Assembly: GCF_021049265.1 (NCBI RefSeq)
Contig: NZ_CP088018.1
Coordinates: forward strand, 310,001 to 374,000
Direction: 5' to 3'
From: Ruania suaedae
GTDB lineage: Bacteria > Actinomycetota > Actinomycetes > Actinomycetales > Beutenbergiaceae
DNA: 64,000 nt
The notes below the pieces were generated by a model. That model saw only the letters and a program-made list of their open reading frames with translations, was not told the origin of the DNA and did not search any database. Below, piece after piece: positions 35,299-41,845 of the stretch (the first letter of the stretch is position 1; each line of letters starts with the position of its first letter). The translations under genes were made by a program, and so were the position numbers.

Positions 35299-35394
35299 GC
35301 TGGTCGGATGTGCAACGTCCCGTTCCGGTCCTCGGGGCCGACGTATGCCAGAAGAACGGCAGTGGCGTCGGCCGGTTGGAGAGCTCGTTCACCC

Positions 35395-38300
35395 ATGTCC
35401 TCAGTTCCTGTCCGTCCGCCGCGTCGTCGCGCGCGGCTGCTCGCCTCCGCGCTCGCGGCCACTCTCCTCGCCGGCCTCGGCTCGGCTGCTGTCACAGCGC
35501 CGGCGTCCGCCGACACCCGCACGCCGTTCGAGGCGGTCGACCCGTTCATCGGCACCGAGCTCGATCTGAGCGAGAACAAGAGCAACGACGCCTACGGCAA
35601 CACCTTCCCCAGCGGCGCGCTGCCGTTCGGGATGGTCCAGCCCAGCCCGACGACGTACAACACCGATCCTGACGCCCACCACCTGGTGCGGGAGAAGGGT
35701 GGCTACGAGTACACCGCGGACCAGATCCGCGGCTTCGGGATGACCCGCTACTCCGGGACCGGCTGCCACGAACGCTTCGGCGGGTACGAGTTCCCGACGA
35801 CGCCCTACACCGGCGCCCTGGACGAGGACGTGCTGCCGGTGAGCCCGGCGGTGGATCACCGCAGCTACTTCCTGGACTTCAGCCACGACGCCGAGGTCGC
35901 CGAGCCCGGTTACTACGCGGTCGAGACCGACAACGGCGTGCTGACCGAGCTGACCTCCACCACCCGCACCGCGGTCAGCCGGTTCGCCTTCCCGGAGGGC
36001 GCCGACAGCGCCACCCTGGTGCTGGACGCCGCGGGTGCGAACAACCGCATCCACGATGTGGTGCTGGACATCGATCCGGAGACCCGGACCGTCAGCGGAT
36101 GGACCTACGGGGCCGACGTCTGTGACGACGGCACCCACTACCGCGCTCACTTCTCGACCACCTACGACCAGCCGTTCGAGTCGTGGGGGACCTGGGAGGG
36201 CGCCACGATGACCGCCGACGGTGTATCCGCCGAACGCCTCAGCGGCGACGAGGGCATCGACTTCCGGCACCAGGTCGGCGGATGGCTGACCTTCGCCGAC
36301 GGCGCCGAGGTGACCGCGCGCACCGGCTTCAGCTATGTCAGCATCGAGGGCGCCGAGCAGAACCGGCAGAGCGAGACCGCCGATCTGAGCTTCGACCAGA
36401 CCCGGACCCAGGCGCAATCCGCCTGGGAGGACGCGCTTGGCGTCATCGACGCCGCGGGCGGCACCGCCGACCAGCGGACCCAGTTGTACACCGCGCTCTA
36501 CCACTCGCTCCTGCACCCCAACGTGCACCAGGACGTCACCGGCGAGTACCGCGGCAAGGACGGCGAGATCCACACCGTCGAGGACGGCCGCGACCACTAC
36601 AAGATTTTCGCCGGGGGTGGCTGGGACATGGTGCGCAGCCACGCTCAGCTGCTCGCGATGCTCTACCCCGAGGTGGCCGAGGACCTCACCCGGACCATCG
36701 TCGACCAGGTCCGACAGCGCGGGTCCTGGGAGGCGTTCCGCGGTGTGGACAGCTACCAGAACCTCATCGCCACGCTGGACGCCTTCGGTGCCACCGATTA
36801 CGACCGCCAGTGGGTGCTCGACTCCATCGCCTCCACCCAGGGCCTGCCCTCGGGCGACTCCGGACGCTTCCAGGCGTTCCAGTACTTCGCCACCGGGATG
36901 ATCGAGAACGGCAAGGGCGGGGACGCCACCTCCCGCGTTCTCGATCACGCCGTCACCGACTTCTCCGTGGCCCAGCTGGCGGCCCGGCTGGGTGAGGACG
37001 AGGTCCACGACACCTTCATGGCGCGCGCGCAGAACTGGCGGATGGTCTTCGACCCCGAGACGCAGGAGATCCGCCCGCGCTCGCGCAACAGCTTCGACCG
37101 CGGCTTCAACCTGGCCGAGCGCGGCAACCAGTTCCACCAGTCCACCGGCCACCAGTGGAACTGGCACGTGCAGCACAACCTCGGATCGCTGATCGAGATG
37201 CGTGGCGGAGCACAGGCCTCCGAGGCGGTGCTCGACCGTCTGATGGCCGACCTCGACGCCGGCGCCTACGACCAGACCGGCAACTACCTGTCCAACCAGC
37301 CCGCCCTGAGCACGCCGTGGGTCTACCACTGGCTCGGCAAGCCGCACGAGACCACCGACGTGCTGTACCGGGCCATGGATCAGATGTACGGCACCGACCC
37401 CGCCGGCCTGCCGGGCAACGACGACCAGGGTTCGCTCAGCTCCTGGGTCGTCTTCTCCCACCTGGGTCTCTACCCGGCCATCTACGGCACCGCGAACCTG
37501 CTCGTCACCGCCCCGATGTTCGACGCCATCACGATCTCTAGCGCCGGCTCCGAGCGCGTCTACGAGATCGAGGCACCGGGCGTCTCCGACGGTGCTCGCT
37601 ACACCACCGGGCTGAGCGTGAACGGGGCCCCGCAGTCCGCCTCCTGGATCGGGGAGGATTTCGCCCGCGACGGCGGAGACCTCACCTTCGAGATGTCCGC
37701 CACCCCGGGCGACTGGGGCGCCGGCGAGGCCGACGTGCCGCCCTCGTACACGGAGGGGACGAACGCCCGCAACAACGTCGGCACCGTGCCGCACGGCGCC
37801 GCGCTGATGGGGTCGATGGACCTGAGCAACTGGGCGTTCTCCCGGGCGGGTCTGGAGAGTTCCGGTGCCGCTCCGGGAGCCGAGCTGGAGCACCCGGTGC
37901 ACGAGAGCCTGGTCTTCACCTGGCCCGACGCCGAACCCGGTGAGCCCGACAATTGGATCCCGCACGGTCAGCGGATCGAGGTGGAGCCTCAGCAGGCGGC
38001 CACCATCTCCTTCCTGGGCCTGGCCACCAACGGCCCCTCACAGGGTGAGGCGACCGTGGAGTACACCGACGGCTCCACCCAGCAGGTGCCGGTCCACATG
38101 ACCGACTGGGCGCAGAGCCCGGGCGGCGGTAACTCCACCGTCTTCGAGGTGGGTAACCGGGTCAGCAGCAACGGCGGCATCGGGGGAGGGACCTTCCGGG
38201 TCTTCGCCACCCGGCCGGCTGCGCTGGACCCGGACAGGACCGTCGAGGCGGTCACCCTCCCGGGCGCCGACCACGGCGGACTGATGCACCTGTTCGACGT

Positions 38301-40962
38301 GGCGCTCTCCCCGGAGGGCTGGACGGACCCCGATGCCCCCCTCGGGGACCCCGAGCGCATCGTCCTCAACCCCAGCGAGGATCCGTCCAGCTCGCAGTAC
38401 GTGACGTGGCGCTCGCGCAGCCAGGGCCCCCTCGCGGGGTCGGTCGAGGTGCGCCCGGCCGCCGGTGGCGAGACCGTGACCGTGGCCGCGGAGCAGAAGC
38501 CCGAGCGCTCCGTGGGCGGCTACCCCTCCCGCAGCCACAGCGCGCTGCTGACGGACCTGACGCCGCAGACGGCCTACGAGTACCGGGTGGCCTCCGGGGA
38601 CCGCTGGAGCGAGTGGCTGAGCTTCACCACCGCTGCCGACGCGTTCGAGCCCTACACCTTCCTCTACTTCGGTGACGCGCAGAACGGGATCCCGACGATC
38701 TTCCCGCGTGCCATCGACGCGGCCGTGGCCGATCACCCGGACGCTGAGCTCGGACTGTACGCGGGCGACCTGATCGACCACGCACCGAACGACCAGCAGT
38801 GGACCGACTGGTTCGATGCCACCGAGCCGCTGCGCACCGACCGGCAGGTGCTGACCACGCTCGGCAACCACGAGATCGGCGGCCAGCCGTTCATCGAGGC
38901 GTTCACCGACAGCTTCGAGTACGCCGCGAACGGGCCGGTGCCCTCGGACGCACGCGAGTACGCCGCCACCCACGGCGAGCACCTCGCGCAGGTGCTGCAG
39001 GACACGGCGTACGTGACCGACTACCAGGGTGTGCGGTACATCTCCGTCAACGCCAACCACGACGACATCTGCCCCATCTCCCGGCCGCCGGGCCAGCCCG
39101 ACGACTGTGAGGTCAACCGCCAGGCGTGGTTCACGGCGCAGGCGCACTGGCTCGAGCGGGTGCTGCAGGAGAACCCGCACGACTGGTCGGTGGTGCTGGC
39201 TCACCAGCCGATCTTCTCGGTGGGGGTCTCCGGCGGCGGACTGCGGGATGAGGTCATGTACCGCGAGCACATCGTGCCCGTGCTCGAGCGCAACGACGTG
39301 GACCTGGTCCTGCAGGGCCACGACCACACCTACGGCCGGGGTGTGCACAACTCCTCGACCACCGACATCGACGGCGTCAGCGCCGGTCCGGTCTACGTGG
39401 TCTCCAACGCCGGGGAGAAGATGTACGACCTTCCCTCGGACGAGGACAACCGCTGGACGCAGAACCACGCCGACCTGCAGGTGCGGGTGCAGGACGTGGC
39501 GACGTATCAGTCGATCCGGGTCGAGGAGGACACCCTGACCTACGAGTCGGTCGCGACCTGGGTGGCGCCCCGCGGTGCGGGCGGCCCGGTGGCCGAGGGT
39601 GACGTGGTGGACTCCTTCACGGTGACCCGCTACGACGACGGCACCAAGTGGGTGACCGATGACGGCGTGCAGGTCCCGGGTGAGGACGAGCCGGCGCAGA
39701 ACCTGCCGCTGCCCACGCCCGAGGCCTTCGACGACGACACCTACGGGGAGGTCGCCTGGGAGGACGACTTCTCCGAGGATCTGCTCGAGGAGTACACCGT
39801 CCACGGTGCCGGGTCGGAGCCGGCGGCGCAGGTGTCGGTCGACACCGACGCCGGCCTGCTGACGACGTCGGCCGACGGCCGGGCGTGGACGCAGCTCGCG
39901 CTTCCGGCGGAGGTGGGCGAGCAGTTCGCCCTCGTCGTCGAGCCCGAGTCGTTCCTCGACTCCGATGTGGAGGAGGACAGCCTGTTCCTGGGGCTGACGG
40001 CCGGTCCGGACGAGCGGGTGCACTCCTGGTACAACCACAGCCGCGGGGAGCACGGTATCGACGTGCGACTCGACGGTGGCAACGATGGCCTCGCCGCCGG
40101 CCCGGGCCGTCCCTACCCGCTCGGGTGGGAGCCCGGCGACCGGTTCGCCGTCCGGGTCGACCACGGCGAGCTGACCGTCTGGCTCGAGCAGGGCGAGGAG
40201 TGGGAGCTGGTCCGGCGCGGGCTGCTCGATCTCACGATCGACGCCGAGGCCTATGCCGACTGGGCGCCGTCGGTGGCCATGCGCCAGGACGGGGGCGAGC
40301 TGAGCCTCGATCGGATCACCCTGTTGCGGCCCGCCGACGAGACGGACCCGACGGACCCCACGGACCCGACGGATCCGACGGACCCGACTGATCCGACCGA
40401 TCCCACGGACCCGACTGATCCCACGGACCCGACGGATCCGACCGATCCCACGGACCCGACCGATCCGACGGACCCGAATGATCCCACGGACCCGACGGAT
40501 CCGACGGACCCGACCGACCCGGGCGAGCAGCCGGGCGGCGACCCCTCCGAGTCCGATCTGGTCGACTCGCTACGCGGCGCCATCGAGGTGCCGGCCACGA
40601 TCGTCCGCGGTGACGACGTCACCGTCGGCCTTGGGCAGGACGTCACCGGTGAGGTGAGCGGTTACCTCTTCTCCCACGCGGTCTCGCTCGGCACACAGCC
40701 GGTCGCGGATGCCTCGGTCACCTTCGCGGTCCCGGCCGACGTCGCGCTGGGGGAGCACCGCCTAGCGGTGTACGGCGCCGACGGTGAGCTCATCGGGTGG
40801 GCCCCGACCACGGTGATCGACGCCGTCGAGGACGAGCCGGGCCTCGACCTCCCGGCCACGGGCGCGAGCCTGGGCCTGGCGGCCGTGGCGCTGCTGTTGC
40901 TCGCCCTCGGGGTGCTGCTGGCCCTGCGCCGCCGGACGATGGCGGGAGGCCTCGGACACTGA
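35395..40962 (+). CDS. Wall-anchored GH92 mannosidase fused to a purple-acid-type phosphatase
   Basis: A 1855-residue secreted protein. Signal peptide 1-40 (LLASALAATLLAGLGSAAVT, cleavage after ASA). GH92 module about 45-785, with PFIGT, GGGWDMVRSHAQ, GHQWNWHV and GNDDQGSLSSWVVFSHLGLY (base Asp pair 676-677). At the general-acid site the usual GNEP is SNQP, with Gln635 replacing Glu. A beta-sandwich follows (about 785-980), then a phosphatase N-domain (985-1080) and a metallophosphatase (1086-1395) with all motifs: GDAQ 1093, GDL 1124, GNHE 1157-1160, AHQPIF and GHDH 1308-1311. A lectin-like domain, a (DPT)n spacer, a beta domain and the sorting signal LPATG (1819-1823) complete it. Loss of the acid and the fused phosphatase fit hydrolysis of mannosyl-phosphate caps followed by release of phosphate. 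A PHO box lies upstream and a 16-bp terminator stem downstream. Family calls are firm; the substrate is inferred. Confidence 0.9.
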   Translation: MSSVPVRPPRRRARLLASALAATLLAGLGSAAVTAPASADTRTPFEAVDPFIGTELDLSENKSNDAYGNTFPSGALPFGMVQPSPTTYNTDPDAHHLVREKGGYEYTADQIRGFGMTRYSGTGCHERFGGYEFPTTPYTGALDEDVLPVSPAVDHRSYFLDFSHDAEVAEPGYYAVETDNGVLTELTSTTRTAVSRFAFPEGADSATLVLDAAGANNRIHDVVLDIDPETRTVSGWTYGADVCDDGTHYRAHFSTTYDQPFESWGTWEGATMTADGVSAERLSGDEGIDFRHQVGGWLTFADGAEVTARTGFSYVSIEGAEQNRQSETADLSFDQTRTQAQSAWEDALGVIDAAGGTADQRTQLYTALYHSLLHPNVHQDVTGEYRGKDGEIHTVEDGRDHYKIFAGGGWDMVRSHAQLLAMLYPEVAEDLTRTIVDQVRQRGSWEAFRGVDSYQNLIATLDAFGATDYDRQWVLDSIASTQGLPSGDSGRFQAFQYFATGMIENGKGGDATSRVLDHAVTDFSVAQLAARLGEDEVHDTFMARAQNWRMVFDPETQEIRPRSRNSFDRGFNLAERGNQFHQSTGHQWNWHVQHNLGSLIEMRGGAQASEAVLDRLMADLDAGAYDQTGNYLSNQPALSTPWVYHWLGKPHETTDVLYRAMDQMYGTDPAGLPGNDDQGSLSSWVVFSHLGLYPAIYGTANLLVTAPMFDAITISSAGSERVYEIEAPGVSDGARYTTGLSVNGAPQSASWIGEDFARDGGDLTFEMSATPGDWGAGEADVPPSYTEGTNARNNVGTVPHGAALMGSMDLSNWAFSRAGLESSGAAPGAELEHPVHESLVFTWPDAEPGEPDNWIPHGQRIEVEPQQAATISFLGLATNGPSQGEATVEYTDGSTQQVPVHMTDWAQSPGGGNSTVFEVGNRVSSNGGIGGGTFRVFATRPAALDPDRTVEAVTLPGADHGGLMHLFDVALSPEGWTDPDAPLGDPERIVLNPSEDPSSSQYVTWRSRSQGPLAGSVEVRPAAGGETVTVAAEQKPERSVGGYPSRSHSALLTDLTPQTAYEYRVASGDRWSEWLSFTTAADAFEPYTFLYFGDAQNGIPTIFPRAIDAAVADHPDAELGLYAGDLIDHAPNDQQWTDWFDATEPLRTDRQVLTTLGNHEIGGQPFIEAFTDSFEYAANGPVPSDAREYAATHGEHLAQVLQDTAYVTDYQGVRYISVNANHDDICPISRPPGQPDDCEVNRQAWFTAQAHWLERVLQENPHDWSVVLAHQPIFSVGVSGGGLRDEVMYREHIVPVLERNDVDLVLQGHDHTYGRGVHNSSTTDIDGVSAGPVYVVSNAGEKMYDLPSDEDNRWTQNHADLQVRVQDVATYQSIRVEEDTLTYESVATWVAPRGAGGPVAEGDVVDSFTVTRYDDGTKWVTDDGVQVPGEDEPAQNLPLPTPEAFDDDTYGEVAWEDDFSEDLLEEYTVHGAGSEPAAQVSVDTDAGLLTTSADGRAWTQLALPAEVGEQFALVVEPESFLDSDVEEDSLFLGLTAGPDERVHSWYNHSRGEHGIDVRLDGGNDGLAAGPGRPYPLGWEPGDRFAVRVDHGELTVWLEQGEEWELVRRGLLDLTIDAEAYADWAPSVAMRQDGGELSLDRITLLRPADETDPTDPTDPTDPTDPTDPTDPTDPTDPTDPTDPTDPTDPTDPTDPNDPTDPTDPTDPTDPGEQPGGDPSESDLVDSLRGAIEVPATIVRGDDVTVGLGQDVTGEVSGYLFSHAVSLGTQPVADASVTFAVPADVALGEHRLAVYGADGELIGWAPTTVIDAVEDEPGLDLPATGASLGLAAVALLLLALGVLLALRRRTMAGGLGH
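40345..40524 (+). repeat. Twenty 9-bp units encoding Asp-Pro-Thr
   Basis: The units run in frame: 14 DPT, one DPN, four DPT and a final DPG. Codons vary (GAC/GAT, CCG/CCC, ACG/ACC/ACT), so it is not a recent slippage product. It encodes the flexible wall-spanning spacer between the enzyme modules and the LPATG anchor. Confidence 0.85.
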
Positions 40963-40966
40963 GGCC

Positions 40967-41001
40967 GGCTGCCGTGCGCGCACGATGCGCGCACGGCAGC
41001 C
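40967..41001 (+). terminator. Strong intrinsic terminator-like hairpin
   Basis: A perfect 16-bp stem, GGCTGCCGTGCGCGCA with TGCGCGCACGGCAGCC, and a 3-base loop (CGA) start four bases after the GH92-phosphatase stop codon. No T-run follows, as is common in high-GC actinobacteria. Confidence 0.8.
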
Positions 41002-41010
41002 GATCTGTCC

Positions 41011-41016
41011 TAGGCT
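41011..41016 (+). promoter_or_regulatory. -10 box of the lipoprotein gene (leaderless)
   Basis: TAGGCT lies seven bases before the ATG at 41024, which predicts transcription beginning at or next to the start codon. The ribosome-site region is missing as expected for a leaderless mRNA. Confidence 0.45.
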
Positions 41017-41023
41017 CTCCGAT

Positions 41024-41845
41024 ATGCACGGACGGTGGAGGGGCGCTGCGGCCGCAGCCACGGTTCTCGGCTCGGCACTCGCCCTCGGTGGATGCTCGGT
41101 GATCGGCGTCGAGCAGCAGGAGCCGCTGGTGTGCGAGGGCGAGTCGCCACCGAGCACCTCGCCCGGTGAGTCCTCCCCCTTGCTGACGCTCGCCGAGGGC
41201 GAGAGCCCGTGGGACCTGGTCACCGTCGTCTACGCCGACGGCGTCGTGGTCCACGCCGACGGCGGTTCCACCCTCGCCCCGCCTCGGGGCCCGGGCGTCG
41301 AGACCCCGGCCGAGACCGACGGCGCGCAGACCCCGTGGCGCAGTGGCTACGTCTTGCCCTGCGTGGTGACCGAGCTGCGCGAGCGTGCCGAGCAGGCACT
41401 GTTCGGCAACCCCGACTTCGGCCGGATCAGTCGCCCCGACCTGGAGACGACCTACCTGCGCTATGACGACGGCGTCTCGACGGCGGCCGCCGAGGCGCAC
41501 GGGCACGGCACGGGCTACTCCGACGGCCTGACCTGGTCGCAGCGGCGCGCCCGCGACGACCTGCGCGGGCTCACCGACCTGCTGCGCGTGAACCTGGTGG
41601 TGACCGGGGAGGAGGTGCCCGTCGAGGCCGTCCAGCTGGACGGTGAGATCCCCGACGGTGCCACTCTTGCGTCCACCTGGCCCGGACCGCCGGCGGCCGA
41701 GGTACTCGGCGAGGAGGGCTGCGGGGTCCTGGCCGAGGAGGTCACCGACGAGGCGGTGCAGTACGGACTCGAGCGGGGCCTGGGCAGTGCCGGCGAGGAC
41801 CTCCGCCTCCGCGCGCTCCCGCCGGCGGTCTCCGGCTGCGGGTAG
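41024..41845 (+). CDS. Lipoprotein, paralogue of the one at 44053
   Basis: A 273-residue lipoprotein with the signal and lipobox VLGSALALGGC (Cys24). The mature part is acidic and has no domain I recognise. It shares with the lipoprotein at 44053 the blocks PPxxxPGExxPLLTxAxG, PWDLVTVVYADG/PYDLTRVVYEDG, Y(V)LPC/YLGEC, TYLRYD/TYLTRYG, WPGPPAAEVLGEEGCG/WPGPPLADIVGDGACG and a C-terminal Cys, so the two are clear paralogues. Conserved cysteines suggest disulfides. It is probably a surface-exposed protein of unknown role; transcription appears leaderless. Confidence 0.75.
   Translation: MHGRWRGAAAAATVLGSALALGGCSVIGVEQQEPLVCEGESPPSTSPGESSPLLTLAEGESPWDLVTVVYADGVVVHADGGSTLAPPRGPGVETPAETDGAQTPWRSGYVLPCVVTELRERAEQALFGNPDFGRISRPDLETTYLRYDDGVSTAAAEAHGHGTGYSDGLTWSQRRARDDLRGLTDLLRVNLVVTGEEVPVEAVQLDGEIPDGATLASTWPGPPAAEVLGEEGCGVLAEEVTDEAVQYGLERGLGSAGEDLRLRALPPAVSGCG

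Follow-up and report, generated by a model that had tools for sequence, protein, structure and literature searches.

Architecture and setting of the fusion protein

The window analyzed here, a 64,000-nucleotide stretch of the Ruania suaedae genome (contig NZ_CP088018.1, positions 310,001 to 374,000), carries on its forward strand, at 35395-40962, one uninterrupted frame of 1855 amino acids with no inner stop in its translation. An in-frame ATG upstream, at 35308, is a second possible start, and the start at 35395 is supported because an orthologue (L082) shows the same MSSV start region. The first 40 residues (35395-35514) have the look of a signal peptide, judged by eye from a basic start, a hydrophobic run and an AxA before residue 40. 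They are followed by a two-part GH92 catalytic module (residues 45-785, 35527-37749), recognized by Pfam (PF17678 and PF07971; GH92N at 48-313 and GH92 at 319-768, both far above the cut-off) and in the AlphaFold model. Next comes a beta-rich linker domain (residues 786-975, 37750-38319), defined by alignment and model and conserved across the clade described below, to which a Pfam search at E 0.001 assigned no family.

The second enzyme module comprises a Pur_ac_phosph_N domain (residues 986-1079, 38350-38631; PF16656, E 5.6e-18) and a metallophosphatase domain (residues 1090-1313, 38662-39333; PF00149, E 2.4e-13), the latter also recognizable by its fold. A pattern search located the motifs GDAQ (D1094), GDL (D1125), GNHE (N1158, H1159), AHQP (H1270) and GHDH (H1309, H1311), and the metal ligands D1094, D1125, N1158, H1270, H1309 and H1311 are invariant in an alignment of 14 fusions carrying this phosphatase type (type A below). 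The N-terminal domain, the Metallophos domain and the full set of metal ligands together identify the module as purple-acid type. Beyond it lie a putatively lectin-like beta-sandwich (residues about 1441-1645, 39715-40329), seen in the model and with weak fold matches to the GH43 proteins 5joz and 5jox (E about 1e-5, TM <0.3); an Asp-Pro-Thr repeat, read from the sequence as a likely wall-spanning spacer (40342-40560, approximate boundaries); and an LPATG sorting signal at residue 1819 with a hydrophobic stretch and a basic tail (40849-40959). Two sortase-family genes match in the same genome, and together these features mark the protein as an LPXTG-type sortase substrate. Pfam, the motif search and the 1855-residue frame thus bear out the original prediction that one chain carries a GH92 module, a purple-acid-type phosphatase with its metal motifs and an LPATG anchor.

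Mean pLDDT in the AlphaFold model is 91.6 for residues 45-975 and 84.5 for residues 976-1645. The solved structure nearest in fold to the GH92 module is BT3130 (6f8z, TM 0.89), with CcMan5 (2xsg) at TM 0.80 (normalised to the target), and the nearest to the phosphatase module is red kidney bean purple acid phosphatase (TM 0.69, 17% identity).

Nine proteins neighbouring the gene were scanned, and none was mannan-related (GPP34, DUF2961, amidohydrolase, photolyase and dihydroxyacetone kinase are examples). Directly downstream, at 40985-41845 of the forward strand, lies a predicted lipoprotein without a Pfam family; it also adjoins the fusion gene in both orthologue loci from the genus (65% and 56% identity), and tblastn did not find it in the remaining fetched loci. 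An order-wide GH92 search found a single GH92 in the window's genome, where GH76 gave no match and GH38 gave five. Because no GH76 matched, the organism is not an evident degrader of the yeast-mannan backbone despite its five GH38 matches, and with this gene complement it may take only phosphorylated ends.

Residue 582 and the general acid

The original prediction held that the GH92 module lacks its general acid, and located the loss at Gln635 (codon 37297-37299), within an SNQP at residues 633-636 confirmed here by motif search. The loss is upheld; its location is not. Alignments to BT3990, BT3130, the E. faecalis GH92 and CcMan5 place the acid at residue 582 (codon 37138-37140), a Gln within the motif FHQSTG that begins at residue 580. 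Its counterparts are Glu533 of BT3990, Glu535 of BT3130, Glu494 of the E. faecalis enzyme and Gln536 of CcMan5 (profile alignment, chain 2xsg), and the general acids given in the literature are Glu533 of BT3990, Glu535 of BT3130, Glu598 of AnGH92A from Aspergillus and Glu489 of SpGH92 (PMC5930347, PMC12858847, PMC5215778). In the alignments the acid Glu closes an F/Y-x-E motif that precedes GNEP/GNQP by roughly 50-70 residues; for BT3990, chain and precursor numbering were matched by hand via the His584-Glu585 pair. The E. faecalis GH92 (6dwo) has SNQP, yet keeps Glu at FxE, and PDB 7fe2 is by its title the E494Q mutant of that enzyme.

Across 106 aligned rows, all 56 members of the window's clade have Gln at residue 582 and all 50 other GH92s have Glu. 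The general base Asp677 (codon 37423-37425), aligned with Asp644 of BT3990 and Asp685 of AnGH92A, is Asp in all 106, and every one of the 56 clade rows keeps the NDD motif as well. At residue 635 both amino acids occur: within the clade 49 rows have Gln and 7 have Glu, and among the 50 rows that retain the catalytic Glu the split is 26 Glu to 24 Gln. On these counts and the alignments above we rejected residue 635 as the acid. By alignment, then, this is a GH92 module without its catalytic Glu, with Gln instead at the true acid position. The likeness to the Cellulosimicrobium enzyme that had been invoked in its support carries over to the corrected site, where Q582 aligns with CcMan5 Q536, and not to residue 635, which is ordinary.

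Two further assignments were considered and set aside. Mannoside phosphorylases do without the general base; in this protein the base is present and the acid missing, the opposite of what would be expected of a phosphorylase. R118, R471 and R603, examined as phosphate ligands, distinguish the clade in our sample, but the BT3130 alignment also has an Arg near 118.

The 106 rows combine the window, the loci of a genome-contig scan and GH92s added from an order-wide sample. A first scan of genome contigs found no relatives. A second profile scan, with an alignment of 14 relatives as query, gave 121 confirmed stretches, and the best 80 of these correspond to 76 distinct loci: 59 in one actinobacterial clade, 16 other GH92s and one (L157) unreadable at the column. 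Dropped from the 106-row counts were L157, L087 (one stop), L125 and L136 (both among the 59 clade loci, with frame breaks at the column), L152 (5' cut) and, as a poor row though it has Glu at 582, L226; duplicate readings (the low part of L219 and the high part of L224) were left out as well. Tallied apart from the 106 are L199 (5874-8876, reverse strand) and L230 (1787-4558, reverse strand), which lie outside the clade, have Gln at the acid position (FAQGTS) and form a second lineage with no fused phosphatase. A quick tree, with the trait column named for removal, groups its 13 clade rows (SH-aLRT 100), and a larger tree in which the column was kept does so for its 65 clade rows. Of 396 genomes sampled evenly across the phylum, only the window's and one other gave a match at E 1e-200, and the protein of the other has Glu.

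Phosphatases fused within the clade and beyond it

The original prediction had proposed a search for other fusions of GH92 to a metallophosphatase, and such fusions occur in 26 of 55 intact clade loci with the window not counted. Sixteen carry the window's phosphatase type (type A) and ten carry a second purple-acid type (type B) located 200 or more residues further on. With two further loci in which the partner is a PAP2 phosphatase, 28 of the 55 have a fused phosphatase and 27 have none. This total excludes, among others, the type-A members of genomes G003, G005, G012, G013 and G285 and the unfused ones of G188, G149 and G248. Hosts of type A include Phytoactinopolyspora, Aeromicrobium, Nocardioides, Citricoccus, Phycicoccus, Cellulomonas, Myceligenerans, Sediminivirga and Streptomyces; examples of type B come from Microbacterium, Mycetocola, Frigoribacterium and Sanguibacter, and the PAP2 fusions are in Actinomyces polynesiensis and Ancrocorticia populi.

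The three partners differ from one another. Types A and B are 26% identical, and their best unfused relatives are different proteins, at about 42-45% identity. The PAP2-superfamily module has a fold unrelated to the purple-acid types; a pattern search located its KX6RP and PSGH motifs, whereas the pattern for the third motif gave no match and that one was read by eye (RIVLSFHYPTD in L126). A single group of all 25 fused purple-acid rows was rejected with an AU p of 1.6e-39 (quick tree, group set by architecture), and this value for A plus B, together with the different PAP2 fold, led us to reject one origin for all fused phosphatases. Within the phosphatase tree, two unfused proteins coded in Microbacteriaceae (L237, L238) join the Streptomyces type-A rows (support 99), such that type A does not occupy one side of a branch; two recruitments of type A, or its later departure from the fusion, may explain this. 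The GH92 tree, built with the trait column kept, shows type B and PAP2 as one clade each and type A as scattered (7 changes). Judged from these sequence comparisons, the phosphatases joined to the clade have at least three origins.

Unfused relatives of both purple-acid types exist as stand-alone proteins. Three genomes with an unfused GH92 (G084, G136 and G149) encode a stand-alone type-B-like phosphatase, which could act in trans, though we offer this only as a lead. At one locus (L278, 4705-11096, reverse strand), two genes for stand-alone purple-acid-type phosphatases lie side by side, and they are among the closest unfused relatives of the phosphatase in the window. Giant proteins of 2450-2627 residues with a purple-acid-type phosphatase were also seen in the same genus, at L162 (5755-13107, forward), L164 (5366-13213, forward) and L163 (5160-13043, reverse), and the two put through Pfam, L162 and L164, match DUF2341 as well.

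Around the 27 unfused loci (nearest two genes on each side, genes above 900 aa excluded), neither metallophosphatase nor PAP2 appears among the 25 commonest of 122 families in 97 neighbours. Two neighbours match the HAD-like hydrolase family, which includes phosphatases, and a wider profile search around these loci gave one weak phosphatase match (L092, E 5.6e-5).

GH92s outside the clade served as the control. An order-wide search of 149 genomes had given 73 GH92 matches, of which we took 35 non-clade proteins with frames of at least 1000 residues and one of 924, and one from the phylum sample was added (n = 37); 29 non-clade matches with open frames below 935 aa, which leave little room for a second enzyme, stand outside both this control and the residue-582 counts. 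Three of the 37 have no 60-residue tail, hence 34 C-terminal tails were scanned with Pfam at E 0.001, and all 18 matching families were inspected: a phosphatase family was found in 0 of 34. Local profiles of type A, type B and PAP2 likewise gave no match in the 37 control proteins or in the 16 non-clade loci. Fisher's exact test on 28/55 versus 0/34 gives 4.6e-8, a value to be taken only as a guide because the rows share ancestry and similarity to the query decided which clade loci were sampled. Two of the 34 control tails match GH76, joining an exo-mannosidase to an endo-mannanase family.

Proposed function and relation to known systems

We consider it probable that the window's protein is anchored to the cell wall and processes phosphate-linked mannose in two steps on a single chain, a reading that starts from the observed architecture, acid loss and repeated fusion and from which we infer the substrate, the activities, the order of the steps and the fungal source. 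With its fold and its base Asp677 intact, the Gln582 module would be efficient only where the leaving group can depart without protonation, because it is an inverting GH92 without the acid. Phosphate is such a group, with CcMan5 as the precedent (PMC5930347). The module would cleave Man-alpha-1-phospho-6-Man to give mannose, with inversion, and a 6-phosphomannosyl end, and the purple-acid-type phosphatase on the same chain would then release phosphate from this monoester, leaving the mannan end neutral. Both sites would be kept at the cell surface and near the glycan, for example fungal cell-wall mannan, by the lectin-like domain and the LPATG anchor. Phosphomonoesterase chemistry is common to purple acid and PAP2 phosphatases, and that of all three partners fits the product of the first step. 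The presence of three different phosphatases on one acid-less clade is our main argument, and it suggests that the product of the GH92 site feeds the phosphatase site; that phosphatases with different origins were fused again and again speaks strongly for a linked pathway. Against this reading stand the 27 of 55 intact clade loci that are unfused, with no clear phosphatase neighbour among the families listed around them, the missing GH76 match in the window's genome and the broad range of phosphoesters on which purple acid phosphatases act.

The two modules might instead share a polymer and act on separate bonds, the phosphatase scavenging phosphate from a variety of phosphoesters and the GH92 attacking a different mannose-1-phosphodiester, for example in bacterial, algal or protist glycans. 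Both purple-acid types have the stand-alone relatives described above, and the genome's want of GH76 and the unrelated neighbours of the gene are consistent with such a division of labour. We nevertheless judge it unlikely, as repeated fusion within the clade against 0 of 34 tails elsewhere points to linked steps. It is more doubtful still that the steps run in reverse, with the phosphatase domain acting as a phosphodiesterase to free mannose-1-phosphate and the Gln-GH92 then hydrolysing mannose-1-phosphate or the trimmed end. The third partner speaks against this order, being a phosphatase of the PAP2 fold, a family known mainly for monoesters. Phosphate would be usable as a leaving group by a Gln-GH92 in either sequence of steps, and for one metallophosphatase, from mycobacteria, phosphodiesterase action is described alongside phosphatase action (PMC7642983), but CcMan5, a Gln-GH92, is reported to take the diester itself (PMC5930347).

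We see very little prospect that the GH92 module has lost all or nearly all catalysis and binds mannan so as to steer the phosphatase. The E598Q variant of AnGH92A is reported inactive on the mannosides tried, alpha-1,3 manno-oligosaccharides and yeast mannan (PMC12858847), but CcMan5 is active despite its Gln (PMC5930347); all 56 clade rows retain Asp677 and NDD, and in 27 of 55 loci there would be no phosphatase to steer, such that GH92 catalysis seems to be under selection. An ordinary alpha-mannosidase that draws its proton from another residue and is fused by chance to an unrelated phosphatase is scarcely credible: Glu533 variants of BT3990 to Gln or Ala retain some alpha-1,2-mannobiose activity (Zhu et al., cited in PMC10167667), so weak ordinary mannosidase action is compatible with Gln582, but the Gln is invariant in 56 rows and no other GH92 tail of the 34 holds a phosphatase.

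Extending the two-step reading from the protein to its relatives, we lean, by a narrow balance, towards an unrecognised actinobacterial class, a monophyletic acid-less GH92 subfamily for mannosyl-1-phosphate bonds into which a phosphatase has been built at least three times. The sequence rule that follows, Gln at FxE and not GNEP/SNQP, would separate likely mannosyl-phosphate hydrolases from ordinary GH92 mannosidases and make the activity of a whole uncharacterised subfamily predictable. An alpha-mannosidase of C. cellulans has been used to expose mannose-6-phosphate on yeast-made proteins (PMC9246025); if active, isolated GH92 modules of the clade would be new tools for the same task, and the fusions would strip the phosphate as well.

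Among characterized enzymes, the Glu-type GH92s (BT3990, BT3130, EfMan-I, SpGH92 and AnGH92A) share with the window's module the fold, the base Asp, an NDD or DED motif and often SNQP or GNEP; they differ in having Glu at the acid position, and the 34 tails scanned held no phosphatase. The plant purple acid phosphatase of red kidney bean (PDB 6hwr) likewise has an N-terminal beta domain, the metallophosphatase fold and the metal motifs, but it is only 17% identical, and the window's phosphatase is part of a glycosidase anchored to the wall. CcMan5 (CcGH92 of Cellulosimicrobium cellulans; PDB 2xsg, 4aq0) acts on a mannosyl phosphodiester (PMC5930347). It resembles the window's module in its GH92 fold and in having Gln at the general-acid position (Q536 against Q582), but its sequence match (E 2e-28, against 2.8e-67 for BT3130) ranks below BT3130, BT3965, BT2199 and BT3990; as so distant a relative, it cannot lend its activity by descent, and the analogy rests on the residue. 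The Gln changes in CcMan5 and in the clade look independent, judged by sequence match with CcMan5 outside the tree. Its solved chains span 774-790 residues, and we know of no phosphatase on the CcMan5 chain.

For yeast mannan breakdown by B. thetaiotaomicron, a GH38 for phosphate-attached mannose and phosphatases have been described (PMC10154615). The same two steps are proposed there, mannose off the phosphate and then the phosphate off, but by separate enzymes, with GH38 in place of GH92 and after import into the cell. The original prediction knew of no enzyme joining both steps, and our literature search, thin on subscription journals, likewise turned up no report of such a fusion. The chemistry of each step is already described; what appears new is their proposed union on one chain.
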